A DNA stretch of 53,018 bases, taken from positions 1-53,018 of the forward strand of contig JAUYSD010000164.1 in NCBI GenBank assembly GCA_030696505.1, given 5' to 3'. Below the pieces are notes generated by a model. It saw only the letters and a list, made by a program, of their open reading frames with translations. It made no database searches and was not told the origin of the DNA. The position numbers and the translations under genes were made by a program. The DNA is from Sulfuritalea sp. Its GTDB lineage: Bacteria; Pseudomonadota; Gammaproteobacteria; Burkholderiales; Rhodocyclaceae. Below, piece by piece: positions 265 through 12,147 of this stretch (position 1 is its first letter; the number at the start of each line of letters is the position of its first letter).

Positions 265-1110
265 TTACAGCCGCACGGTTTCCGCGCCGCAGATAATGCC
301 GGTCTGCGGCAACTCGTCAAGAGTTGGCGCTGGCGACGCGGCGCTGCGCGGCGCTTCGGCCGGCAAGGCGGCGGCGACGGGCTGCCAGGCGCGCACCAGT
401 TCCAGCCTGCCGTCATGGTGCTCGACGACGGCGGTGCAGCTATCGACCCAGTCGCCGCAATTGACATAGACCGTGCCGTCGACTGGACGGATCGCCGCGC
501 TGTGGATGTGGCCGCAGATCACGCCGTCCAGGCCGCGCTCGCGCACGGCGTGGATCAGCGCATCCTCGAAGTCGAAGACGAAGGAAACGGCGCGCTTGAC
601 GCGGGTCTTGGCGTAGCCGGCCAGCGACCAGTAACCGGGGCGGCGCAACAGGCGGCGCAGGCGCGAGAGCCAGGCATTCACGCGCACCAGCAGGTTGTAG
701 CCGACGTCGCCGAGCACTGCCAGCCAGCGGTGATAGCGCGTCACCTGGTCGAACTCGTCGCCGTGCAGCAGCAGGTAGCGGCGGCCGTCGGCGGCGACGT
801 GGATGTGTTCGCAGCGCACCAGGATGTCGCCGAAGGAAACGCCGTCGTATTCGCGCATGGCCTCGTCGTGGTTGCCGGGAATCAGCATCACCTGCTCGCC
901 GCGGCGGGCGCGGCGCAGGATCTTCTGCACCACGGTGTTCTGCGCCGGGGTCCAGTGGATGCCGCGGTTCATGGCCCAGAAGTCGATGATGTCGCCGAGC
1001 AGGAACAGGTTCTCGCTCTCGTAGTCGCGCAGGAAGTCGAGCAGGCGCTCGGCCTGGCAGCCGCGGGTGCCGAGATGGACGTCGGAGATAAAAATGGAGC
1101 GGACCTTCAT
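265..1110 (-). CDS. plcP: PlcP-type metallophosphoesterase (phospholipase C), LpxH superfamily
   Basis: 281 residues with the full calcineurin-like metal-binding set: SDVHLG (9-14), GDIID (39-43), GNHDE (79-83), HGDEFD (116-121) and GHIH (200-203). The tail motif CGDWVDSCTA resembles, from memory, the PlcP family of Sinorhizobium and marine bacteria more than short LpxH. PlcP enzymes remove the phosphate headgroup from phosphatidylethanolamine and phosphatidylglycerol during phosphate starvation, leaving diacylglycerol. The ATG overlaps the stop of the upstream glycosyltransferase by 4 nt, so the two are translationally coupled. It is the last gene of a lipid operon divergent from pst. The alternative is a lipid A UDP-diacylglucosamine diphosphatase; the context favours PlcP. 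A copy of a dispersed 23-bp repeat forms part of the C-terminal tail. Confidence 0.8.
   Translation of the reverse strand: MKVRSIFISDVHLGTRGCQAERLLDFLRDYESENLFLLGDIIDFWAMNRGIHWTPAQNTVVQKILRRARRGEQVMLIPGNHDEAMREYDGVSFGDILVRCEHIHVAADGRRYLLLHGDEFDQVTRYHRWLAVLGDVGYNLLVRVNAWLSRLRRLLRRPGYWSLAGYAKTRVKRAVSFVFDFEDALIHAVRERGLDGVICGHIHSAAIRPVDGTVYVNCGDWVDSCTAVVEHHDGRLELVRAWQPVAAALPAEAPRSAASPAPTLDELPQTGIICGAETVRL
321..343 (+). repeat. Dispersed 23-bp repeat, copy R1
   Basis: Matches the consensus GAGTTGGYGCTGGCG, three variable bases, then CGGCG. It lies antisense within the last codons of the plcP-like gene. It differs from copy R6 (43881) at two positions. Confidence 0.7.
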
Positions 1111-2300
1111 GGTTCGGCGATGAAGCGGTAGGTCGCTTCCCCGGCCACTGGCGGCAGCGGCTGCGCGATGGCCTCGCGCAGCGCGGCCAGCAGTTGCTCG
1201 TGGATGCGCTCCCAGTCGAGTGCGGCGACGCTGCGGGGCGCCGCCGTGGCTGCGCGGCGGCGGGCGCCGGGTCGCGTCACGAGGTCGAGCGCGGCGCGCA
1301 CGAACTGGTCGCTGGCGCCGGGTTCGGCCAGCATGCCGTTGTCGCCGTGGCGTATCAGTTCGGCGGCGGCCGCCATGCGGTAGGCCACCACCGGCAGGCC
1401 GCTGGCCAGCGCTTCGAGGGTGACGTTGCCCCAGGTGTCGGTCATGCTCGGAAACAGGAACAGGTCGGCCGACGCATAGTGCGCGGCGAGGTCTTCGCCG
1501 TGGCGCATGCCGGCATGGATGTAATCGGGATGCTCCCGCAGCAGCCGCGCCCGCGCCGGCCCGTCGCCGACCAGCAGCAGGCGCGACGTGGGAGCATGGC
1601 GGCGAATCGCGGCGAAGCTGCTGAGCACCAGCGGCAGATTCTTTTCCGGCGCCAGGCGGCCGACATGAGCCACCACCAGATCCTGGTCGCCGACCTGCCA
1701 GGCGGCGCGCAGGGCGGCGCTGCGGCGCGCCGGATTGAACAGGGCGGTATCGACGCCGCGGGCGACCATGCGGAGGTTGCGGTAGCCGCGGCGCTGCAGA
1801 TCGAGGCCGAGCCGGCGCGAGGGCACCAGGGTCATGCGGCTGCGGTTGTGCAGGCGCTGCAGATGCTCGGCAATCAGGTCTTCCAGCCAGGCCAGGCCGT
1901 AATGCCGGCTGTAGCTGTGGAAATTGGTATGGAATTCCGAGACCACCGGGATGCCGAGTTCGCGCGCCGCGGCGATCGCCGAGCTGCCCAGCGGGCCTTC
2001 GGTGACGACCTGGACCACGTCCGGGCGCTCGGCGCGCCAACTGCGGCGCAACAGGCGCTGCGCCGGCAGGCCGAACTTGAGGCCGGCATAACCGGGAATC
2101 GGCAGGCCGCGCACCAGCGTCGTGGTCAGCCCCGGTGCGGCGGGTGGCGCGTCGCCGGCGTGCTGGCGCGGCCGCGTCAGGCTGACGCGATGGCCGCGTG
2201 CCAGCAGGCCCTGCACCATGCGGCCCAGCGTCATGGCCACGCCATTGACTTCCGGCGGGTAGGTTTCGGTGACCACGGCAATGTGGATCGGCGCGGTCAT
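1107..2300 (-). CDS. GT4-family glycosyltransferase (Agt-like candidate)
   Basis: 397 residues with the GT-B fold typical of family GT4. The N-terminal nucleotide-fold start (ETYPPEVNGVAMT) and the donor-site region with APEKNL and ASGLPVVAYRMAAAAELI are visible. There is no signal peptide. Such enzymes transfer a sugar from a nucleotide donor at the cytoplasmic face of the membrane. In phosphate-stressed bacteria a GT4 enzyme (Agt) encoded beside plcP converts the diacylglycerol made by PlcP into glucosyl- or glucuronosyl-diacylglycerol. Here the stop overlaps the plcP start by 4 nt, which fits that partnership. The start is the ATG 2 nt after the dgkA stop. A role in glycan or mannolipid synthesis cannot be excluded. 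Confidence 0.75.
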   Translation of the reverse strand: MTAPIHIAVVTETYPPEVNGVAMTLGRMVQGLLARGHRVSLTRPRQHAGDAPPAAPGLTTTLVRGLPIPGYAGLKFGLPAQRLLRRSWRAERPDVVQVVTEGPLGSSAIAAARELGIPVVSEFHTNFHSYSRHYGLAWLEDLIAEHLQRLHNRSRMTLVPSRRLGLDLQRRGYRNLRMVARGVDTALFNPARRSAALRAAWQVGDQDLVVAHVGRLAPEKNLPLVLSSFAAIRRHAPTSRLLLVGDGPARARLLREHPDYIHAGMRHGEDLAAHYASADLFLFPSMTDTWGNVTLEALASGLPVVAYRMAAAAELIRHGDNGMLAEPGASDQFVRAALDLVTRPGARRRAATAAPRSVAALDWERIHEQLLAALREAIAQPLPPVAGEATYRFIAEP

Positions 2301-2302
2301 AT

Positions 2303-2692
2303 TCACGCCACCAACACCAGCGACCAGGTCGCCAGGACATTGATCAGCGCGATCAGTACCGCCGCGCTGCCGATGTCCTTGGCGCGTTTGGAGAGCCGGT
2401 GCCGATCCAGCGAAATGCGGTCGATGGCGGCTTCGACCGCCGAATTCAGCAGTTCGACGACGAGCACGACGAGCACGCTGCCGATCATCAGCGCCTTGCC
2501 GAAGCCGGGCACCGACATGAACAGTGCAAGCGGGATCAGCAGCGCCGCCAGCAGGCTTTCCTGGCGGAAGGCGTCTTCGTTGCGATAGGCCGCGCGCAGC
2601 CCCGACAGGGAGTAGCTGAAGGCGTTCCAGATGCGGCGCAAACCGGTTTGGCCCTTGAACGGGCTTTCCTCGATGGCGGGTTCCGTATTCAT
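2303..2692 (-). CDS. dgkA: Diacylglycerol kinase
   Basis: 129 residues, close to the usual length of about 122. An amphipathic N-terminus (AFSYSLSGLRAAYRNEDAFR) is followed by three membrane helices and the family signature ELLNSAVEAAIDR. The enzyme phosphorylates diacylglycerol to phosphatidic acid in the inner membrane. Its place between two glycosyltransferases and upstream of plcP gives the locus two fates for diacylglycerol: sugar addition, or recycling to phosphatidate. The start ATG overlaps the stop of the upstream glycosyltransferase by 4 nt, and the next gene starts 2 nt downstream, so it is firmly in the operon. Confidence 0.92.
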   Translation of the reverse strand: MNTEPAIEESPFKGQTGLRRIWNAFSYSLSGLRAAYRNEDAFRQESLLAALLIPLALFMSVPGFGKALMIGSVLVVLVVELLNSAVEAAIDRISLDRHRLSKRAKDIGSAAVLIALINVLATWSLVLVA

Positions 2693-3981
2693 CGGCCGGT
2701 GGACACCGGCTGCTGGCAGTCGAGGGCGAGCGGCGCGCGCAGCAGTTGGCGATACAGCGCGGCGAGCCGGGCGCCCTGTGCCGTGGCATCCCACTCGCGG
2801 GCGAAGGCGATGCCCTCGCCACCCATGACGGCCAGCTGGGCCGGACGTCCGAGCAGCGCCGCCAGTTGCTCGGCAAAGGCCTCGGGCGTGTCGGCGGCGG
2901 CGACCGCGCCGCGTTGGGGCAGGATGATTTCGGCCGCGCCCAGGGCTGGAATGGCCAGTACCGGCAGGCCGACCGCCATGGCTTCGAGCAGCACCAGGCC
3001 CTGAGTTTCGGTAAGCGAGGCGAAGGTGAACACGTCGGCGGCGGCGTAGCAGTCGCGCAGGCCGCCCTCGCGCGGCAGGTAGCCGACGAAACGCACGTGG
3101 TCCGCGATCCCCAGCGCCGCCGCCTGGCGGCGCAATGCCGGCAATGCCGGTCCTTCGCCGGCAATCACCAGCATCAGTGCGGGCCGCTGGCGGCGTGCGA
3201 CGGCCAGCATTTCGAGCAGGAAGCCGATGTTCTTCTCGTGCGCGGCGCGACCGACGTAGAGCGCAATTTCGCATTCCGGCCCTATGCCCCAGGTCTGGCG
3301 AAAGCGCTTGCCGTCGCCGCGCAGGAACTGGGATTCCGGCAATCCGGTGGGAATCACATGCAGCGGCGCGGCAACGCCATAGTCGCGCAGGGTGGCGGCC
3401 ATCGCTTGCGAGGGCACGACGATGGCATCGAGCGCAGCGCACTGATGGCGGGCCAGGCAGCGCGCCGCGTAACGCAGCGCGCTGCGCGGCAGGAAGCGGA
3501 TGTAATGGAACAGGTATTCCTCGAAGTGCGTGTGATAGCTCGCGATGCACGGAATGCCGCGCGCCCTGGCCAGGCGCAGTCCGGCGTAGTGCGCGGCGAA
3601 GGGGGTCTGCACATGCACCAGGTCGACGTCGCAATAGTTGGCGCTTGCCGGCCCGCGAAGCGGAATCCCCGGCAGACAGAGTCCGAGACGGCGATCGAGT
3701 TGCGCGAGGTGGCTCCAGCGCATGAGGCGGTCTTCCGGGTCCAGCGGCACGGCGCGCGACGGCAGGCGCTGAATGTCCTCATCGGCATCGGCTTCGCTAT
3801 TGGTCCCCGGATAGTCGGGCGCCACGATGGTGACACGCACGCCGAGGCGCGCCAGGGTGGTATGGAAGGTCTGGATCGAGGTGGAGACCCCGTTGATGCG
3901 CGGAAAATAGACGTCGCTGATCATCAGCACGTGCATGCGGCGGCTTTCGCGCGCTGTTGCGAAAATCCCGCCTGCATTCAT
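2689..3981 (-). CDS. GT4-family glycosyltransferase with a repeat-derived insertion
   Basis: 430 residues, GT-B fold. The core begins near residue 16 (MHVLMISDVYFPRINGVSTS), followed by VHVQTPF, SYHTHFEEYLFHYIR, the donor-site AAHEKNIGFLLEM and EAMAVGLPVLAI. The family resembles alpha-mannosyl and diacylglycerol glycosyltransferases. I take the start at 3981 because that ATG overlaps the olsB stop by 4 nt; the internal Met16 is an alternative. Between LDRRLG and the VDLVHV strand lies a stretch (LPGIPLRGPASANY) encoded by a copy of the 35-nt hairpin element, which looks like an in-frame insertion. It is the second of two GT4 genes in the operon, so a two-sugar headgroup or two different glycolipids are possible. 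Confidence 0.75.
   Translation of the reverse strand: MNAGGIFATARESRRMHVLMISDVYFPRINGVSTSIQTFHTTLARLGVRVTIVAPDYPGTNSEADADEDIQRLPSRAVPLDPEDRLMRWSHLAQLDRRLGLCLPGIPLRGPASANYCDVDLVHVQTPFAAHYAGLRLARARGIPCIASYHTHFEEYLFHYIRFLPRSALRYAARCLARHQCAALDAIVVPSQAMAATLRDYGVAAPLHVIPTGLPESQFLRGDGKRFRQTWGIGPECEIALYVGRAAHEKNIGFLLEMLAVARRQRPALMLVIAGEGPALPALRRQAAALGIADHVRFVGYLPREGGLRDCYAAADVFTFASLTETQGLVLLEAMAVGLPVLAIPALGAAEIILPQRGAVAAADTPEAFAEQLAALLGRPAQLAVMGGEGIAFAREWDATAQGARLAALYRQLLRAPLALDCQQPVSTGR
3644..3678 (-). repeat. REP-like 35-nt hairpin element, copy H3 (inside a gene)
   Basis: Read on the minus strand it shares TTCCGCTTCGCGGG with copies at 11192 and 31710. The inner stem is CCGC-GAA-GCGG (3653-3663). 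The outer stem is GCCGG (3647-3651) with CCGGC (3669-3673). In the other copies the outer stem has different but still paired bases. It is translated in frame inside the glycosyltransferase. Confidence 0.6.
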
Positions 3982-4739
3982 GCCGCCGGCTTGACGAAGT
4001 GGCGCATGTAACGCGGGTTCATGCGCGACATCGGCAACAGCAGGAGCAGATCGGCGGTGTTGAAGTCAGGATCCCAGGCCGGTTCGCCGCAGATCCAGGC
4101 GCCGACGCGCAAATAGCCCTTGATCAGCGGCGGCACCAGCGCCGGCTGACCGTTGGCGAGCCGTTCGAAGGGCAGGCCGTGCTGCGGAAACACGCGATAT
4201 TCCGCCGGCGCCATGTAATCGGGTGCGATCTGGCTGAACAGGTTGGCGGCATTGTGGCCGCCGTCGACCATGCCGATCGAGGCGCAGCCGATCAGGTAGT
4301 CGTAGTTGTTGCTCACCATGTAGTTGGCCAGACCGGCCCAGAGCAGGGTGATCACCGCGCCGCTGCGATGCTCGGGGTGGATGCAGGAGCGGCCGACTTC
4401 CACCATGCGGCCGCGCAGGTTCTGCAGCCGGTTGATGTGGAACTCGTTCTCCGAGTAGTAGTTGCCGATCCGGCGCGCCGCCGTCGGCGACAGGATGCGG
4501 TAGGTGCCGACGATGCGGTCGGCCTGGCTTTCGCGCACGATCAGGTGTTCGCAGAACGCGTCGTAGTGATCGATGTCGTGGTGGGGCAGGCGCGAGTGGA
4601 TGCGGGCGCCGAGTTCCTCGACGAATACCTTGTAGCGCAGGCGCTGCGCCTCGCGGACTTCCTCTTCGCTGCGCGCCAGCGCAACGCGGTAGCCAACCTT
4701 CTGTGCGGTGGCGGCGGTTTCGATCAGATGCTCTTGCAT
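3978..4739 (-). CDS. olsB: L-ornithine N-alpha-acyltransferase (GNAT superfamily)
   Basis: 253 residues of the OlsB / acyl-homoserine-lactone-synthase-like GNAT group. Key stretches are LRYKVFVEELGA, the acyl-transfer core IVGTYRILSP and VEVGRSCIHPEHR, and a conserved C-terminal half (CASIGMVDGGHNAANLFSQI). OlsB adds a 3-hydroxyacyl chain from acyl carrier protein to ornithine, giving lyso-ornithine lipid. The upstream acyltransferase gene is the expected partner for the second step. Ornithine lipids contain no phosphorus, and many bacteria make them when phosphate is scarce. An AAGGAG-like ribosome site precedes the ATG. It overlaps the next gene by 4 nt. Confidence 0.85.
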   Translation of the reverse strand: MQEHLIETAATAQKVGYRVALARSEEEVREAQRLRYKVFVEELGARIHSRLPHHDIDHYDAFCEHLIVRESQADRIVGTYRILSPTAARRIGNYYSENEFHINRLQNLRGRMVEVGRSCIHPEHRSGAVITLLWAGLANYMVSNNYDYLIGCASIGMVDGGHNAANLFSQIAPDYMAPAEYRVFPQHGLPFERLANGQPALVPPLIKGYLRVGAWICGEPAWDPDFNTADLLLLLPMSRMNPRYMRHFVKPAA

Positions 4740-4811
4740 GGCGTTCTCCTTTTTTCTCTCGGGTTCGCCTGCATTTTCGAAACTCCGCGTTACCGCCTGA
4801 TTGCCGCTGTG

Positions 4812-5579
4812 TTACGGAGAGGTTGCGCGCCTCTCGGCATGCGCCAGCGCAGCGGCGACCGCTTGGTGGGCGCGGTGCGCAAGATGGCGGCGATCGGCCA
4901 GCGGCGGGGCGAAGCTGGCCGCCAGCGCGACGCGGGCCGTCAGTCCGCGCGCTTCGAGGACTGTCGTCAGGCAGGCCAGCAGGCTGATGTCGTCGATGTA
5001 GGCCGGCGCCGCGGAACGCAGGCCATCGGCCCCGTGGTAACTGAGCGCGAGCGCGTAGAGCGGCACTGCGGCGTCGATCGCACTCTGAAACAGGGCGGCG
5101 TGGAAAGGCAGCAGTCGGTCGCCGGCGGTGGTGGTGCCTTCCGGAAACACCACCAGGCGCGTGCCGGCGTCCAATGCCACCTGCATGTGGCGCCGGGTGT
5201 CGTGCGCCGCCTTGCGGCTGCCGCGTTCGATGAACACGGTGTCGTTGCGGCGGCTGAGCCAGCCGATCAGCGGCCATTGCGCGATATCGCTCTTGGCGAC
5301 GAAGCCCGACGGCAGCAGGGTGTTGAGGACGAAGATATCGATGAAGGAAACGTGGTTGCAGACCAGCAGGCCGTTCTCGATGCGGTCCAGGCCGCCGCCA
5401 GCCGCTTCGATGCGGATGCCGAGCAGCGCCAGCAGTCGCCGCGACCAGGCGCGTTTCAGGCGTTGCCGCACGGCGCTGCCGGCCAGGGGAAACAGCAGGC
5501 CGGCCTGGAGTGCGGCGGAGACCAGATGCAGCCCGATCAGCAACAGGCGCAGGCTGGAAAACAGGGGAAAGGGCCGCAT
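4812..5579 (-). CDS. olsA: 1-acyl-glycerol-3-phosphate-type acyltransferase (PlsC/OlsA family)
   Basis: 255 residues with an N-terminal membrane segment (about 9-32) and both PlsC signatures: NHVSFID (75-81, the HX4D catalytic motif) and FPEGTT (145-150). OlsA O-acylates lyso-ornithine lipid to ornithine lipid; some members also acylate lysophosphatidic acid. Placement 72 nt upstream of olsB supports the OlsA role. It is the first gene of the operon. No Shine-Dalgarno is visible before the ATG, and a candidate Pho box ends only about 22 nt upstream, so the mRNA may be leaderless or nearly so. A housekeeping PlsC role remains possible. Confidence 0.82.
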   Translation of the reverse strand: MRPFPLFSSLRLLLIGLHLVSAALQAGLLFPLAGSAVRQRLKRAWSRRLLALLGIRIEAAGGGLDRIENGLLVCNHVSFIDIFVLNTLLPSGFVAKSDIAQWPLIGWLSRRNDTVFIERGSRKAAHDTRRHMQVALDAGTRLVVFPEGTTTAGDRLLPFHAALFQSAIDAAVPLYALALSYHGADGLRSAAPAYIDDISLLACLTTVLEARGLTARVALAASFAPPLADRRHLAHRAHQAVAAALAHAERRATSP

Positions 5580-5601
5580 CGGCCGAGGATAGGATGGCCC
5601 C

Positions 5602-5619
5602 GTTACAGGAGCATGACTT
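5602..5619 (-). promoter_or_regulatory. Candidate Pho box for the lipid operon
   Basis: On the minus strand the sequence reads AAGTCAT-GCTC-CTGTAAC. These are two 7-bp half-sites at the 11-bp spacing of PhoB sites (CTGTCAT, four bases, CTGTCAT); each half matches at 5 of 7. It points toward olsA. A weak -10 (TATCCT, 5587-5592) follows. This is a motif match by eye. Confidence 0.5.
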
Positions 5620-5657
5620 CCAGGCGCAGGGAAACAATTTCCCTTCAGGCTGAAACG

Positions 5658-5675
5658 ATTTCACGGCGCTGTAAC
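5658..5675 (+). promoter_or_regulatory. Candidate Pho box for pstS
   Basis: ATTTCAC-GGCG-CTGTAAC, two half-sites at 11-bp spacing facing pstS; the second is the same CTGTAAC as in the opposite box, the first is weak (4 of 7). A -10-like TAGACT (5686-5691) lies about 10 nt downstream, as at PhoB-activated promoters where the box replaces the -35. Confidence 0.45.
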
Positions 5676-5728
5676 ATTCGCTGCCTAGACTGCGGGCTTC
5701 CATTTCGCAAGCACAAAGGAGTCTATTA

Positions 5729-6715
5729 ATGAAATCCCTGAAAATTGCTGCTGTTGTTGCCGCTGCTTTTGCCTCGGCATCGGTGTATGCCCAGGCCCTG
5801 ATCAAGATCGACGGCTCCTCGACCGTGTTCCCCGTGACCGAGGCGGTGGCCGAGGATTTCCAGAAGGCCAAGAAGGGCAGCGTCCGCGTCACCGTGGGCA
5901 TTTCCGGCACCGGCGGTGGCTTCAAGAAGTTCTGCCGCGGCGAGACCGACATCTCCGACGCCTCGCGCCCGATTCTGAAGAAGGAAATGGAAGCCTGCGC
6001 GGCTGCCGGCATCAAATACATCGAATTGCCGGTGGCCTTCGACGCATTGACGGTCGTGGTGAATCCGAAGAACAGCTTCATCAGCCAGCTCACGGTCGCC
6101 GAACTCAAGAAGATGTGGGAGCCGGCCGCCCAGGGCAAGGTGATGAAATGGAAGGACGTCAACCCGGTCTGGCCCGATGCGCCGCTCAAGCTCTTCGGCC
6201 CCGGCGCCGATTCCGGCACCTTCGATTACTTTACCGAAGCCATCAACGGCAAGTCGAAGTCCAGCCGCGGCGACTTCACCGCCTCGGAAGACGACAACGT
6301 GCTGGTGCAGGGCGTCTCGCGCGACAACAATGCGCTGGGCTTCTTCGGCTTCGCTTACTACGACGAGAACAAGGGCAAGCTGAAGGCGGTGCAGATCGTC
6401 AATCCCAAGGGCAAGGCCGTGACGCCCTCGATCGATGCCGTAATGGCCGGCGAATACGAGCCGCTGGCGCGCCCGATCTTCATCTACGTCAGCGCCAAGT
6501 CCATGGATCGCCCCGAGATCAAGGAATTCGTCGAGTTCTACCTCAAGCACGGCGCCAAGCTGGCCAAGGAAGTCAAGTACGTGCCGCTGGGCGATGCCGA
6601 CTACAAGCATGCGCTGGACAACTTCAGCAAGAAGAAGACCGGCACGGGCTTCGGCGGCGAGGCCGAGGTCGGCGTCAAGGTGGCCGACCTGCTGAAGCGC
6701 AATCCCAAGGAGTAA
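5729..6715 (+). CDS. pstS: Phosphate ABC transporter, periplasmic phosphate-binding protein
   Basis: 328 residues. A clear Sec signal peptide (about 1-21, cleaved near VYA) is followed by the PstS start IKIDGSSTVFPVTEAVAEDF. Phosphate-contacting motifs include GISGTGGGFKKFCRGETDI, SRPI and GADSGTFDYF. It captures inorganic phosphate in the periplasm and passes it to PstCA. AAAGGAGT sits 7 nt before the ATG. It opens pstSCAB and is divergent from the lipid operon. It belongs to the PstS group with the extra Cys pair (FCRGETD ... EACAAAG), not the classical E. coli form. Confidence 0.95.
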   Translation: MKSLKIAAVVAAAFASASVYAQALIKIDGSSTVFPVTEAVAEDFQKAKKGSVRVTVGISGTGGGFKKFCRGETDISDASRPILKKEMEACAAAGIKYIELPVAFDALTVVVNPKNSFISQLTVAELKKMWEPAAQGKVMKWKDVNPVWPDAPLKLFGPGADSGTFDYFTEAINGKSKSSRGDFTASEDDNVLVQGVSRDNNALGFFGFAYYDENKGKLKAVQIVNPKGKAVTPSIDAVMAGEYEPLARPIFIYVSAKSMDRPEIKEFVEFYLKHGAKLAKEVKYVPLGDADYKHALDNFSKKKTGTGFGGEAEVGVKVADLLKRNPKE

Positions 6716-6733
6716 GCTTCCGCACCCGGTCTG

Positions 6734-6764
6734 GGCGGACGTTGCCGGCAAGGTGGCGTCCGCC
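6734..6764 (+). promoter_or_regulatory. pstS-pstC intercistronic hairpin
   Basis: A perfect 8-bp stem, GGCGGACG (6734-6741) with CGTCCGCC (6757-6764), just after the pstS stop and without a T-run. Such hairpins often protect the upstream message and so raise the binding protein over the permease. A TATAAT (6783-6788) further on could give pstC its own weak promoter. Confidence 0.5.
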
Positions 6765-6827
6765 TTGATCGATGCGCGCCTTTATAATCGCGCACAGCCC
6801 TGAATCGACTCACCCCGGAATCCAGTA

Positions 6828-7790
6828 ATGACTGCCAGCGCCTCCCTGCCTACCCGTCTGCTGCCGTCCGCGTCGCTAGGCAATGGCGTCAGCGACCGGC
6901 TGCGCAAGAAGGCCTCGCGTCACGTCAAGGAGCGCATCATCGAGTCGCTGCTGTTCAGCGCCGCGGCCTTCTCGGTGTTCGTTACGGTGGCCATCGTGTA
7001 CGTGCTGGTCAAGGAATCCTGGGTGTTCTTTCAGGTCGTGCCGCTGTCGGATTTTCTCTTCGACACGCAATGGACACCGCTGTTCGACGACGCCCACTAC
7101 GGCATCATGGTGCTGCTCTCGGGCACCCTGACCAGTTCCGGCGTGGCCCTGTTGGTGGCGATTCCGCTGGGCACCATCATCGCGATCTACCTGTCCGAAT
7201 TCGCCGGCTTCAAGGTGCGCGAAATCGCCAAGCCTTTCCTCGAACTGCTGGGCGGCGTGCCGACCATCGTCTATGGCTACTTCGCGCTGACTTTCCTGAC
7301 GCCGATCCTGCAGAAGATCTATCCCGACCTGCCGGGCTTCAACCTGCTCTCGGCCGGCCTCGTCATGGGCATCATGATCATTCCCTACGTCGCCTCGCTC
7401 TCCGAAGATGCGATGCGCGCGGTGCCGATGGCGCTGCGCGAAGGCTCCTACGCGATGGGCGCGACGCGGCTGCAGACGGCGCTGTGGGTGGTGACGCCGG
7501 CGGCGACCTCGGGCATCGCCTCGGCCTATATCCTCGGCATTTCGCGCGCGGTGGGCGAGACCATGATTCTCGCCGTGGCGGCCGGGATGCAGCCCAACCT
7601 GACCTTCAACCCGACCGAGCCGGGCGCGACCATCACCTCCTACATCGTGCAGGTGGCGCTGGGTGACCTGCCGCACGGTTCGATCGGCTATCAGACCATC
7701 TTCGCCGCCGGCCTCACGCTGCTGCTGATGACCTTGGCCTTCAACCTGCTCGGCTACTGGCTGCGCAAGCGCTTCCGCGAGGTGTATTGA
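6828..7790 (+). CDS. pstC: Phosphate ABC transporter permease PstC
   Basis: 320 residues, an inner-membrane permease with about six to seven membrane segments and the binding-protein-dependent permease domain. The EAA-type loop that docks the ATPase is visible (VPMALREGSYAMGATRLQT), as are GGVPTIVYGYFALTFLTP and AVGETMILAVAAG. A charged N-terminal extension of about 35 residues precedes the first helix. It forms the phosphate channel with PstA. The stop is 1 nt before the pstA start, indicating coupling. Confidence 0.95.
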   Translation: MTASASLPTRLLPSASLGNGVSDRLRKKASRHVKERIIESLLFSAAAFSVFVTVAIVYVLVKESWVFFQVVPLSDFLFDTQWTPLFDDAHYGIMVLLSGTLTSSGVALLVAIPLGTIIAIYLSEFAGFKVREIAKPFLELLGGVPTIVYGYFALTFLTPILQKIYPDLPGFNLLSAGLVMGIMIIPYVASLSEDAMRAVPMALREGSYAMGATRLQTALWVVTPAATSGIASAYILGISRAVGETMILAVAAGMQPNLTFNPTEPGATITSYIVQVALGDLPHGSIGYQTIFAAGLTLLLMTLAFNLLGYWLRKRFREVY

Positions 7791-7791
7791 A

Positions 7792-8727
7792 ATGGTCAAC
7801 GCTGCCGATCCCAACGCCATTCGCGCCGTGCGCGCGATCATCGCGCGGGCCAAGCGCTGGGATCTGTTTTTTTCCCTGCTCGGCATTCTGTCGCTGATGG
7901 TCGGCGTGCTGACCTTCTGCGTGCTCTTCCTCGACATGGCGATTCAGGGCGTACCGCGCCTGGATCTGGATTTCTTCACATCCTTCCCCTCGCGCCGCGC
8001 GGCAAACGCCGGCATCCTCTCAGCCTGGGTCGGCACCGTGTTGGTGATGGCGGTGACAGCGCTGGCCGCCGTGCCGCTGGGCGTGGCCGCCGGCGTCTAT
8101 CTGGAGGAATATGCACCGAAGAACTGGATCACCGACATCATCGAAATCAACATCAGCAACCTGGCCGGCATCCCGTCCATCGTCTATGGCCTGCTGGCCC
8201 TCGGCCTGTTCGTGTATTACTTCGGCTTCGGCCAGAGCATACTTTCCGCCGGCCTGACGCTGGCGCTGTTGATCCTGCCGGTGATCATCGTCGCCACGAG
8301 AGAAGCCATCCGCGCCATTCCGCAGTCGATCCACGAAGGTTCCTACGCCTGCGGCGCGACCACCTGGCAGACGGTGCGCGATCACATCCTGCCGTATTCC
8401 TCGGCCGGGATACTCACCGGCGTGATCATCGGCATGGCGCGCGCCATTGGCGAGACGGCACCGATCATCACCATCGGCGCGCTGACCTTCATCGCCTTCC
8501 TGCCCACGGCGCCCTTCAGCGGTGAGCCGCCGGCCGGCCTGTTCGACTGGATCTTCGCCCCTTTCACGGTGATGCCGATCCAGATGTTCAACTGGACCTC
8601 GCGGCCCGAGGCGGCCTTCACGGTCAATGCCGCGGCGGCCGGCTTCGTCCTCGTCTTCATGACCCTGGCCATGAACGGCCTGGCCATCTACGTGCGCTAT
8701 CGTCTGCGCAAGAACATCAAGTGGTAA
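7792..8727 (+). CDS. pstA: Phosphate ABC transporter permease PstA
   Basis: 311 residues, permease partner of PstC. Motifs include [23 protein letters not shown], the EAA loop [20 protein letters not shown] and [15 protein letters not shown]. An additional loop before the last helix ([18 protein letters not shown]) is usual for PstA. It starts 1 nt after pstC and ends 5 nt before pstB. The two permeases with two PstB copies make the import channel. Confidence 0.95.
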
Positions 8728-8732
8728 ATACC

Positions 8733-9536
8733 ATGCAAATACCTACCGGATACGAGGCGGGCGTCGAGGGCGCCGTGCTCAAGGCCGACGTGCGCGAACT
8801 GGACTTCTATTACGGCGCCTTCCATGCGCTGAAACGGGTCTCGATGCCGATCCACGACCACATGGTCACCTCGCTGATCGGCCCCTCCGGTTGCGGCAAG
8901 TCGACGCTGCTGCGCTGCTTCAATCGCATGCACGACCTGTATCCGGGCAACCGCTATGCCGGCGGCGGCATCGTGCTCTACCCGGACAACACCAACCTGC
9001 TGGACCCCGGCGTCGATCCCATCGAAGTGCGCATGCGCATCAGCATGGTGTTCCAGAAGCCCAACCCCTTCCCCAAGTCGATCTACGAGAACGTCGCCTA
9101 CAGCCTGCGCGTGCGCGGCATGCGCAACAAGAACGAACTCGACGACCGCGTCGAATCGGCGCTGAAGGGCGCCGCGCTGTGGAACGAAGTCAGCAACCGG
9201 CTCAAGGAACTCGGCGCCAATCTTTCCGGCGGCCAGCAGCAGCGCCTGTGCATCGCGCGCGCCCTGGCCTCCGACCCCGAGATCATCCTGTTCGACGAGC
9301 CGACCTCGGCGCTGGACCCGATCGCCACCGCGAGCATCGAGGAGCTGATTATCGAACTGAAGGAAAAGGTCACCATCCTCATCGTCACCCACAACATGCA
9401 GCAGGCCGCGCGCATCTCCGATTTCACCGCCTACATGTACCTCGGCGAGATGGTCGAATTCGGCGTCACCGACCAGTTGTTCATCAAGCCGCAGAAAAAG
9501 GCGACCGAGGACTACATCACGGGACGGTTCGGCTAA
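8733..9536 (+). CDS. pstB: Phosphate ABC transporter ATP-binding protein
   Basis: 267 residues. Walker [10 protein letters not shown] (50-58), signature LSGGQQQR, Walker [12 protein letters not shown] and a switch His in VTHNM are all present, so the ATPase should be active. I use the ATG at 8733; an in-frame GTG at 8721 overlaps pstA but adds only four residues. No phoU or phoBR follows. The next gene is convergent and unrelated, so phosphate signalling genes must lie elsewhere. Confidence 0.95.
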
Positions 9537-9588: not shown

Positions 9589-10797
9589 TCAACGGCAAGC
9601 CGCGACGATAGGCGGCACCACCGGTGCCGGCAGCGGCGCAGCGGGCGACAGCGACTCCAGGAAGGCCACCAGGTCTGAACTTTCCTCCTCGCTCAAATGC
9701 AGCGGCTTCAGAATCCGTTCGCCGTCGGCATGCAGGCGGTCCTCGTCGAGTTCGGAGTAGTGCCGCACCACTTCGCGCAGCGTGGCGAGGCTGCCGTTGT
9801 GCATGTAGGGTGCGGTGAGCGTGAGGTTGCGCAGGCTGGGCACCTTGAACTCGCCGAAGTTGCGATGCTCGGGCCGGAGGAATTTCGTTCCCGTCGCGTT
9901 GTTGCGCGTCGCGTCGTCGTTGTAGGCGCCGAGCAGGTTGTAAGGGTTGGCCAGCAGGCGCTTGATGCCGCCCTGGCGCCCGGGATCGACACCGTTTGGC
10001 TTGATGAAGAAAGGCATGCCGATGTCGCCGAATTCGCCGTTGCTGAACAGCGGCCCAGCGTGGCAGGTGGCGCATTGGCCGCGGCCGACGAAGATGCGCA
10101 GGCCGCGCTGCGCCGCCGCGGGGTAGGCCGCGGCCGTCTGCGCATCGCCGCGCTGCAGCGCATCGCGAAATTCGTCGAAGGGCGTGGCCGGCGAGCCCCG
10201 CGTTTCCTGCCAGGCGGCGATGGCCTTGGCGACATTCACCAGCAGTTCCGGGTCGCCGGCGTCGGGCCGTTTGCCGAAGGCCCCGGCGTAGTGGCAATCG
10301 AGAGTCGACTTGCTGCGCAGCACCCGTGCTACGCGTGAGGCCTTGCCGCCCATTTCGCGCGGATCGAGGATGGGGCGCAGGCTCGCCGACCACAGGTTGT
10401 CGTGGCCGCCGTCCCAGCCGAACCAGCGCTGATGGCGTACGTTGAGCAGGCCGGGCGTGTTGCGCGTGCCGGTCACCAGCCCGCGTGCGACGGTGCGGCC
10501 GTCCTGAAAGCCGCGTGCCGGGTCGTGGCAGGATGCGCAGGCGACGCGCCGGTTGGCCGACAGGCGCGGCTCGAAGAATAGTGCGTAGCCGAGTCGGATC
10601 GCGGAGGCATTGCCCGAGACGCGATTGCCGGGGTCCGCCATCCATGGCAGAGGCCATGGCCCGTGGGCGGCGATGCGGCTGAGTTCGGCGGCGGTGAATT
10701 CCGGCTTGTCCGCGCCGGCGCACGCCGTGGCTGCAAGGGCGAGCAGGGCGGCGAGACCCAGGCGCTTCAGCAAGGGTTCAATCGACCTGCACGTCAT
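9589..10797 (-). CDS. Di-haem cytochrome c peroxidase / MauG-family protein
   Basis: 402 residues. The secretion signal (LGLAALLALAATACAGA) may be Sec or lipoprotein type. Two haem c sites are present, CASCH (87-91) and CATCH (242-246), as in the CCP/MauG family. These periplasmic enzymes reduce peroxide or carry out high-valent oxidations of partner proteins. The start overlaps the end of the upstream YtkA-like gene by 20 nt, so the pair is probably co-translated. The C-terminal motif SLRNLTLTAPYMHNGSLATL is diagnostic of the family. The substrate is unknown. Confidence 0.88.
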   Translation of the reverse strand: MTCRSIEPLLKRLGLAALLALAATACAGADKPEFTAAELSRIAAHGPWPLPWMADPGNRVSGNASAIRLGYALFFEPRLSANRRVACASCHDPARGFQDGRTVARGLVTGTRNTPGLLNVRHQRWFGWDGGHDNLWSASLRPILDPREMGGKASRVARVLRSKSTLDCHYAGAFGKRPDAGDPELLVNVAKAIAAWQETRGSPATPFDEFRDALQRGDAQTAAAYPAAAQRGLRIFVGRGQCATCHAGPLFSNGEFGDIGMPFFIKPNGVDPGRQGGIKRLLANPYNLLGAYNDDATRNNATGTKFLRPEHRNFGEFKVPSLRNLTLTAPYMHNGSLATLREVVRHYSELDEDRLHADGERILKPLHLSEEESSDLVAFLESLSPAAPLPAPVVPPIVAACR

Positions 10798-11274: not shown

Positions 11275-12147
11275 TCACGGCTGCTTCGCCATCATCGAGG
11301 CGAACAGGGTTTCGCCATTGCGCCAGCCGATGCGCTCGGCGACGTCGCGTGGCAGGTCGGCCAGCCAGGCGCGCGACCAGTCGGCGTGCTCGGCGATGTA
11401 GTGCCAGCGCTCGGGCGTGAAGGTGTCGGTGCCGACCAGGAAGCGGTCGGGAAATTCGAGGAAGGCCTCGCGCCACTCGGGATCGATCTTGCCGTCGTTG
11501 GCGTGATCATTGCGAAAGGCCAGGTCGGCGTGAAGCCGGCGATGTTTTTTCAGCATCGCGCGCACCGCCTCGGGCCGGTCGAAGCCGGAATGCGCCCAGA
11601 GGATGCGCGCCTCGGGGTCCTGCACCAGCACCCGCTCGATCGCGTCGCTGTCGCCGTGCAGGTGCAGCCAGAGCTGGTACTGTTTCGCCAATTGCACCGT
11701 ACGCCGCACCACCGGCAGGTCGGCGTCGCTGCCATAGACGTGGAACTCGCCGATCGCCGCGTAGCGATAGCGTTTGAGGCGGTCTTCGAGATGGGGAATC
11801 ACCGTCTCGTCGCGCACCCAGGTCGAAATCTCGCCGCGCTTGCGGTAGGGGCGCAAGGAGGGCACGACAAGGTCGGGCGCCTCGGCATGGAGCTTCTGCG
11901 TGCCCTCGTCGCTGGAACTCGACACCATCGCCCGCCTGAGTCCGGCTTTGCGCAGGATGGCGATGGCCGCCTTGGGCGGCGTGCTCTCCCAAGCGTCATG
12001 GCTGTAATGTACGTGGGCGTCGAAGATCGGCATTTTTGGTTCGGCCGCGGTGCTCGGCTGCGCCAACAGGATGCCCGTCAGTGCTGCGCCTGCCAGGTAC
12101 ATCAGCCGTGTCCGCGTCGTCTCGGGGATTCTGATCTGAGCTTGCAT
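11275..12147 (-). CDS. Secreted amidohydrolase-family protein
   Basis: 290 residues. An N-terminal signal segment (LAGAALTGILLAQPSTAAE) is followed at once by FDAHVHYSHD, the metal-binding HxH strand of the amidohydrolase 2 (TIM-barrel) family. GEFHVYG, LHLHGDSD, ILWAHSGFD and FLVGTDTF continue the barrel ligands. Members act on C-N, C-C or ester bonds of small acids or lactones; no substrate can be named. AGGAG lies 7 nt before the ATG. It is first in a three-gene set with the YtkA-like protein and the di-haem peroxidase, all predicted to be outside the cytoplasm. Confidence 0.8.
   Translation of the reverse strand: MQAQIRIPETTRTRLMYLAGAALTGILLAQPSTAAEPKMPIFDAHVHYSHDAWESTPPKAAIAILRKAGLRRAMVSSSSDEGTQKLHAEAPDLVVPSLRPYRKRGEISTWVRDETVIPHLEDRLKRYRYAAIGEFHVYGSDADLPVVRRTVQLAKQYQLWLHLHGDSDAIERVLVQDPEARILWAHSGFDRPEAVRAMLKKHRRLHADLAFRNDHANDGKIDPEWREAFLEFPDRFLVGTDTFTPERWHYIAEHADWSRAWLADLPRDVAERIGWRNGETLFASMMAKQP

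Follow-up and report, generated by a model that had tools for sequence, protein, structure and literature searches.

A pst-linked locus of Sulfuritalea sp. with six predicted membrane-lipid genes, read as a phosphate-starvation locus

The closest described systems are the PlcP-Agt and OlsBA pathways, both known as low-phosphate routes (PMC4796936, PMC8528852, PMC9239053). PlcP neighbourhoods with agt or btaBA have been described in marine isolates (PMC4796936), a plcP-agt pair is present in Methylosinus, which produces ornithine lipid when phosphate is low (PMC9239053), and Pseudomonas aeruginosa carries an olsBA operon as well as plcP-agt1 and agt2 (PMC8528852, PMC9804370). For Pseudomonas putida BIRD-1, PHO dependence has been described for PlcP, DagK, OlsA and OlsB; a phoBR mutant was without PlcP and OlsAB, and DagK was enriched in low phosphate (PMC5082522). 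The locus in this report lies on a 53,018-nucleotide stretch of Sulfuritalea sp. DNA, called the window here (contig C339 in a draft genome of 4.45 Mb), in which six minus-strand genes, olsA-olsB-GT4a-dgkA-GT4b-plcP (5579-265), diverge from plus-strand pstSCAB (5729-9536). The locus is real and conserved, as seen in its gene families and layout, its conserved boxes, its conservation in the genus and its repeated linkage in other genera. From sequence, it is best read as serving phosphate-starvation lipid remodelling, and we put at roughly 0.8 the probability that it remodels membrane lipids in this way with both units under PhoR/PhoB control.

In the mechanism that we infer, which takes in enzyme activities, products, PhoB binding and induction, low phosphate would lead PhoR/PhoB to turn on both divergent units. 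Pst would bring in more phosphate, and PlcP would take the phosphorylated headgroup off phospholipids so that diacylglycerol stays in the membrane. GT4b, and probably GT4a, would add sugars to this diacylglycerol to give phosphorus-free glycolipids, and OlsB and OlsA would make ornithine lipid, a second phosphorus-free lipid. DgkA would turn surplus diacylglycerol back into phosphatidate, a proposed role that would prevent a build-up of free diacylglycerol and let some phospholipid synthesis continue.

The Sulfuritalea locus resembles the plcP-agt pair known from marine bacteria, from rhizobia and from methanotrophs in having PlcP, an Agt-like glycosyltransferase and putative Pho-box control (PMC4796936, PMC9239053), but its GT4b belongs to a sister clade, and GT4a, dgkA, olsBA and the divergent pst genes are joined to it. 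The same functions are reported to be phosphate-responsive through PhoBR in P. putida BIRD-1, so the functional set is already known; there, however, olsA/olsB and plcP are at distant locus tags (0974/0975 and 1390), whereas in Sulfuritalea they form one block facing pst (PMC5082522). P. aeruginosa uses two glycosyltransferases to make glucosyl- and glucuronosyl-diacylglycerol, along with ornithine lipid, in low phosphate (PMC8528852, PMC9804370). Its agt1 and agt2 are at separate places and are both likened to Agt by the authors, whereas Sulfuritalea GT4a is outside the Agt-like clade. Thiocapsa imhoffii (L118) has ornithine-lipid and glycolipid genes in one run, olsB-olsA-GT4b-plcP, but in the stretch examined, unlike in Sulfuritalea, GT4a, dgkA and pst gave no match.

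The original prediction for this DNA, made from its letters alone, knew of PlcP-Agt pairs but not of a six-gene set beside pst. That judgment overlooked the PHO-dependent set of P. putida (PMC5082522); it agrees with the literature we consulted as regards the block as a whole. Each part of the locus is known, and what we have not found in print is the single pst-facing lipid block, the clade to which GT4a belongs, the pst exchange described below or any report of such lipid remodelling in the family Rhodocyclaceae. Among the loci examined, this is the most complete gathering of known phosphorus-saving lipid routes, and it is tied to phosphate uptake.

Gene content and families

Gene families were assigned by Pfam and NCBIfam models. 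The genes, in window coordinates, are as follows.

olsA, 5579-4812, minus: PF01553, PlsC-type acyltransferase; predicted lyso-ornithine lipid O-acyltransferase
olsB, 4739-3978, minus: Acetyltransf_5 (1.9e-36); predicted ornithine N-acyltransferase
GT4a, 3981-2689, minus: GT4 domains; distinct plcP-linked clade; ATG at 3981 or 3936
dgkA, 2692-2303, minus: DAGK_prokar, PF01219 (8e-33); predicted diacylglycerol kinase
GT4b, 2300-1107, minus: GT4 domains; predicted diacylglycerol glycosyltransferase, sister clade of Agt-like enzymes
plcP, 1110-265, minus: Pfam Metallophos; predicted phospholipase C freeing diacylglycerol
pstS, 5729-6715, plus: phosphate-binding protein, type 1; TIGR02136, 308.3 bits (cut-off 206.6)
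pstC, 6828-7790, plus: TIGR02138, 258 bits (cut-off 196.45)
pstA, 7792-8727, plus: TIGR00974, 271.7 bits (cut-off 193.45)
pstB, 8733-9536, plus: TIGR00972, 364.9 bits (cut-off 343.2)

There are 4-nt overlaps at olsB/GT4a, GT4a/dgkA and GT4b/plcP and a 2-nt gap between dgkA and GT4b; the 72-nt gap between olsA and olsB is the sole wide junction among the five. The frames and junctions bear out the original prediction of overlapping or nearly touching genes running away from pstSCAB, and the family assignments agree with its view that the genes for both substitute-lipid routes and a diacylglycerol kinase are present. All four Pst subunits pass an NCBIfam cut-off for PstS, PstC, PstA or PstB, and pstB is the single match in the genome at E 1e-40.

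The window phosphoesterase had been called PlcP, and the phylogeny bears this out. In a tree with 11 LpxH rows (from 13 candidate loci; L197 and L202, which had no reading frame, were left out), PlcP and LpxH are separate clades at 100/100, with no biochemically tested PlcP among the rows. The window protein scores below both LpxH equivalog cut-offs (47.1 of 190.35 and 50.1 of 134 bits), and a separate LpxH elsewhere in the genome exceeds both, at 228.6 and 258.8 bits. LpxH was thus rejected as the identity of the window protein. Residues D10/H12, D40, N80, H116 and H201/H203, in calcineurin-type motifs, are invariant across 21 sequences (L061, whose reading frame meets a stop after 62 codons, was left out of alignment A1), and we take them to be metal-binding. 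The window PlcP would cleave PE, PG or PC to diacylglycerol.

The two glycosyltransferases differ in their placement. In GT4 trees of 63 and 31 chosen rows, GT4b (gtB) and the Agt-like proteins each form one group, supported at 100/98 and 99/94, respectively, where the label "Agt-like" reflects proximity to plcP in genomes with a name, not tested enzymes: 34 of the 36 Agt-like rows touch plcP or lie within 100 bp of it, and L110 and L117 are further off. The GT4b clade is the sister of the plcP-adjacent Agt-like clade, joined to it at 96/97, and does not fall inside it. GT4a is outside the Agt-like clade in a clade of its own, with support of 100/100, or 99/98 after the addition of four other GT4 proteins of the same genome. 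The earlier description of both as Agt-type enzymes consequently fits GT4b, as a sister clade, and does not fit GT4a. GT4b is predicted to be a diacylglycerol glycosyltransferase.

An envelope-sugar cluster, with an LpxH-type hydrolase and glycosyltransferases for lipopolysaccharide or capsule, would be another way to account for such a set of genes. The LpxH found elsewhere in the genome, the clean split between PlcP and LpxH and the low LpxH model scores stand against it, as does the sister position of GT4b to plcP-adjacent Agt-like enzymes. DgkA and OlsBA, moreover, are membrane-lipid enzymes as families. We regard an envelope-sugar role as highly improbable.

DgkA reaches 112.8 bits with PF01219 (cut-off 22.3), aligns at 1.5e-30 to the solved diacylglycerol kinase 3ze5, which we take to be E. 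coli DgkA, and retains VELLNSA-EA and RAKD, the stretch in which the catalytic residues presumably lie. It is the only PF01219 match found in the genome. OlsB has a GNAT domain in Pfam, and olsB is likewise the only copy found; besides olsA, there are four further PF01553 (PlsC-type) matches.

Within GT4a there is an in-frame palindromic repeat of about 65 bp (window 3630-3695, minus), RLGLCLPGIPLRGPASA. A search of the same genome with this repeat gave 41 rows, GT4a among them, and some of the rows are halves of a single copy. L042 and L049 have it at the same site and in the same frame; in L039, the nearest relative, there is a remnant shorter by 36 nt, and the other loci have no insert or a different one. 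The loop it encodes is predicted at low confidence (predicted local distance difference test score, pLDDT, <50 at 103-109 and 111-114), and the repeat resembles the REP- or RPE-type elements that are tolerated within genes. The LpxH of this genome (L188, C77) also bears an in-frame insert of about 25 residues, SLCVPGTPLYVPEGRYPPGRGQV, absent from all four other same-genus LpxH proteins compared; this is possibly another repeat of the same sort.

Candidate PhoB-type sites and regulators

Three candidate sites were found, two in the 149-bp spacer between the divergent units and one before olsB.

Candidate Pho-type box facing olsA, 5602-5618, minus: AGTCATGCTCCTGTAAC; -10-like TATCCT at 5586-5591
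Candidate Pho-type box facing pstS, 5659-5675, plus: TTTCACGGCGCTGTAAC; -10-like TAGACT at 5686-5691
Third candidate PhoB-type promoter, before olsB, 4789-4815, minus: GTAAC, GCAAT, GTAAC in 11-bp steps; -10-like GAAAAT at 4773-4778

The loose 11-bp repeat [GT]T[CA]A[CT]N6GTAAC has exactly two matches in 53 kb, both in the spacer and in opposite directions (5660 plus, 5602 minus), where a mean of 0.24 was expected from 100 single-base shuffles; the pattern was drawn up after the sites had been seen. Both boxes are outward-facing direct repeats with an 11-bp period and a -10-like hexamer 10 nt further on. Each unit is preceded by such a conserved candidate PhoB-type box and -10 element at fixed spacing, and the suggestion that there are candidate Pho boxes both ways has held up. 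TATCCT ends 6 nt ahead of the olsA ATG, so the olsA message may be nearly leaderless.

The pst-side box is kept in all 14 other same-genus loci with the window's Pst type (15/15 with the window) and in four of the five Sulfuritalea loci with another Pst. A matrix built from the 15 pst-side sites gave 25.5 to 34.3 bits in G018 and in L043, L052, L054 and L055, all outside the training set; their next best sites reached 7.7 to 10.9 bits. The lipid-side box agrees with TGTCAYN5TGTCAY at 9 or more of 12 positions in 15 of 21 Sulfuritalea loci (L051 scored by hand; L056 and L251, which have no pstS, left out of the spacer scoring). The outer half-sites before olsB are present in 20/20 Sulfuritalea rows, once as GTAAT, and the last GTAAC is also found in Rugosibacter L087.

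In other genera, the pst-facing spacer sites agree with TGTCAYN5TGTCAY at 12 of 12 positions in L190, L236, L239 and L252, at 11 in L189 and L238, at 10 in L234 and L240 and at 9 in L233, and the canonical 12-of-12 sites connect the looser sites of Sulfuritalea with the textbook PhoB site. The genome of the window encodes a PhoB (345.5 bits, cut-off 296.2) with an adjoining PhoR (394.7 bits, cut-off 334.2). An 11-of-12 Pho box about 45 bp upstream of the PhoB match (L264, C133, 2223) suggests self-control of PhoBR.

Conservation and rearrangement of the lipid genes

A strong PlcP match (1e-90 or better) was found in 26 of 31 same-genus genomes, our own included. Long stretches were taken for 20 of the other 25 (G008, G009, G010, G020 and G024 were left out; the PlcP match is split in two pieces in G010 and G024). 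A search for the gene order in relatives had been proposed as a check on the original prediction. The order olsB-GT4a-GT4b-plcP is kept in all 20; beyond the genus, L233 has the full six with pst, and six further genera have related, partly permuted versions. A dgkA match is present in 19 of the 20 loci and absent from L048 (genome G019). OlsA adjoins olsB in 17 of the 20; it is missing from L049 (genome G007) and cut off by a contig end in L056, and in L047 it is displaced, with a likeness of only 40%. As for Pst, 14 loci have the window type, 5 have the other type and 1 is cut by a contig end. In G018 (L187), which has lost the glycolipid half, pst, olsA and olsB are present and there is no plcP, GT4 or dgkA match within the 18-kb stretch; genome-wide, there is no PlcP match beyond LpxH level, the search outside that stretch having covered only PlcP and OlsB.

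In L048, where dgkA is missing, 17 nt separate the ends of the GT4a and GT4b matches, and this natural loss could serve for comparison.

These losses bear on whether the six lipid genes are one unit. There may instead be two stacked units, with PhoB-type promoters before olsA and olsB, in which the ornithine-lipid and glycolipid parts are adjacent and are gained or lost separately. This arrangement would fit the conserved 11-bp repeat and -10-like element ahead of olsB in every Sulfuritalea row, the absence or displacement of olsA in L049 and L047, the gene content of G018 and the permuted gene order in other genera. However, only olsA stands apart, by its 72-nt gap, and olsB to plcP would remain one unit because their junctions overlap by 4 nt or lie 2 nt apart. 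We consider two stacked units conceivable, though the less favored arrangement. In the phosphate-starvation reading, the third site would allow the lipid genes to be read without olsA.

The family survey covered 121 genomes in 68 genera and, at the cut-offs used, found GT4a in 76, olsB in 98 and plcP in 82 genomes. Of the 78 genomes holding both olsB and plcP, 26 (18 genera, including that of the window) have the two within 15 kb of each other, and for GT4a and plcP this is so in 55 of 70; chance linkage is estimated at about 1% (30 kb in roughly 3.6 Mb). The counts are low because of assembly breaks, and they are not independent because of shared descent.

From other genera of the family, 23 loci were mapped, most of them picked for a nearby olsB. 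In eight of these, from seven genera, pst is directly divergent from the lipid genes, with the cluster partly permuted and with either Pst type. L233 has all six lipid genes and the window's Pst type, and L234 is the same without olsA; Rugosibacter L236 is without olsA and has the other Pst, and L189 has the other Pst with plcP apart on the opposite strand. OlsB is shifted behind plcP in L238 (window's Pst type) and in L239, L240 and L252 (other Pst). In an eighth genus (L190), the gap between the lipid genes and pst is 4.4 kb, and L062 (genus g5) has plcP alone. Of 80 named loci, 78 were covered (all but L085 and L086); 12 of these have a GT4a-like and 14 a GT4b-like protein above 300 bits, two of the latter being Thiocapsa and Halochromatium, presumably purple sulfur bacteria.

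Several results, in addition to the after-the-fact origin of the loose repeat pattern, weigh against the phosphate-starvation reading. GT4a and GT4b are both below NCBIfam cut-offs, and the best NCBIfam models of OlsB and OlsA are those for OlsB and OlsA, yet the scores are 179.3 of 320 and 174.8 of 350 bits for the former and 131.5 and 128.9 of 300 bits for the latter. Even when up to 3 mismatches are allowed, the strict consensus CTGTCATN4CTGTCAT has no match in the window. L047 is without the conserved pst-side box, and among the 21 Sulfuritalea loci scored the lipid-side box agrees at 8 of 12 positions in L051, L057, L058 and L187 and is unseen in L047 and L049, where olsA is displaced or absent. 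In other genera, the lipid-facing sites are no better than background (8-9 of 12), and the best spacer site is unremarkable taken alone in L050 and L233, where fractions of 0.173 and 0.196 of background windows are equally good. Five of the 31 same-genus genomes (G001, G004, G012, G018 and G026) have no strong PlcP match, and G018 is 99% complete.

Exchange of the Pst genes

The PstS, PstC and PstA proteins of L054 pass the PRK10918, PRK11275 and PRK11268 cut-offs, making the other Pst the E. coli kind by family models. The window PstS instead passes TIGR02136, and the two Pst types are non-orthologous. L054 shares both neighbours of the window genes (9589-10797 and 11275-12147), and the Pst difference therefore lies in place. 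Of the five loci with the other Pst, four (L043, L052, L054 and L055) retain the promoter core TTTCAC-N5-TGTAACATTCGCTG-(C/T)-CTA(A/G)ACT, and there the likeness, judged by eye, stops just past the -10 element; the fifth, L047, is without the core. The simplest reading is that the transport genes were exchanged, in either direction, under a retained promoter.

This retained core also bears on the idea that the lipid genes are constitutive membrane-lipid genes that happen to lie beside pst without phosphate control. Ornithine lipid is reported as a major polar lipid of Rhodocyclus species (PMC8954225), and cells rich in phosphate may therefore produce it as well. The single olsB and single dgkA matches in the genome likewise allow that the operon carries housekeeping functions. 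Against constitutive expression stand the conserved divergent boxes with their equal -10 spacing, the linkage to either Pst type in eight genera, Sulfuritalea among them, and the retention of the core in four of the five loci that have different Pst genes. We consider it unlikely.

A broader and more speculative reading, which we offer tentatively, is that Rhodocyclaceae have a modular phosphate island that keeps uptake and membrane phosphorus saving physically together despite permuted lipid genes and non-orthologous Pst exchange under a retained promoter. GT4a might then found a class of PlcP-linked lipid glycosyltransferases outside Agt, with a new glycolipid, and the operon DgkA might set the share of diacylglycerol returned to phospholipid. 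The locus raises testable points in the GT4a product, in DgkA beside a phospholipase predicted to make its substrate, and in the selection on pst exchange under one promoter.

Next to pstB there is a gene for a MauG-like di-heme protein (window 9589-10797, minus; best model 156 of 443.85 bits). Of the 20 extended Sulfuritalea loci, 8 gave a match to it, and many of the 20 stop short of that point.

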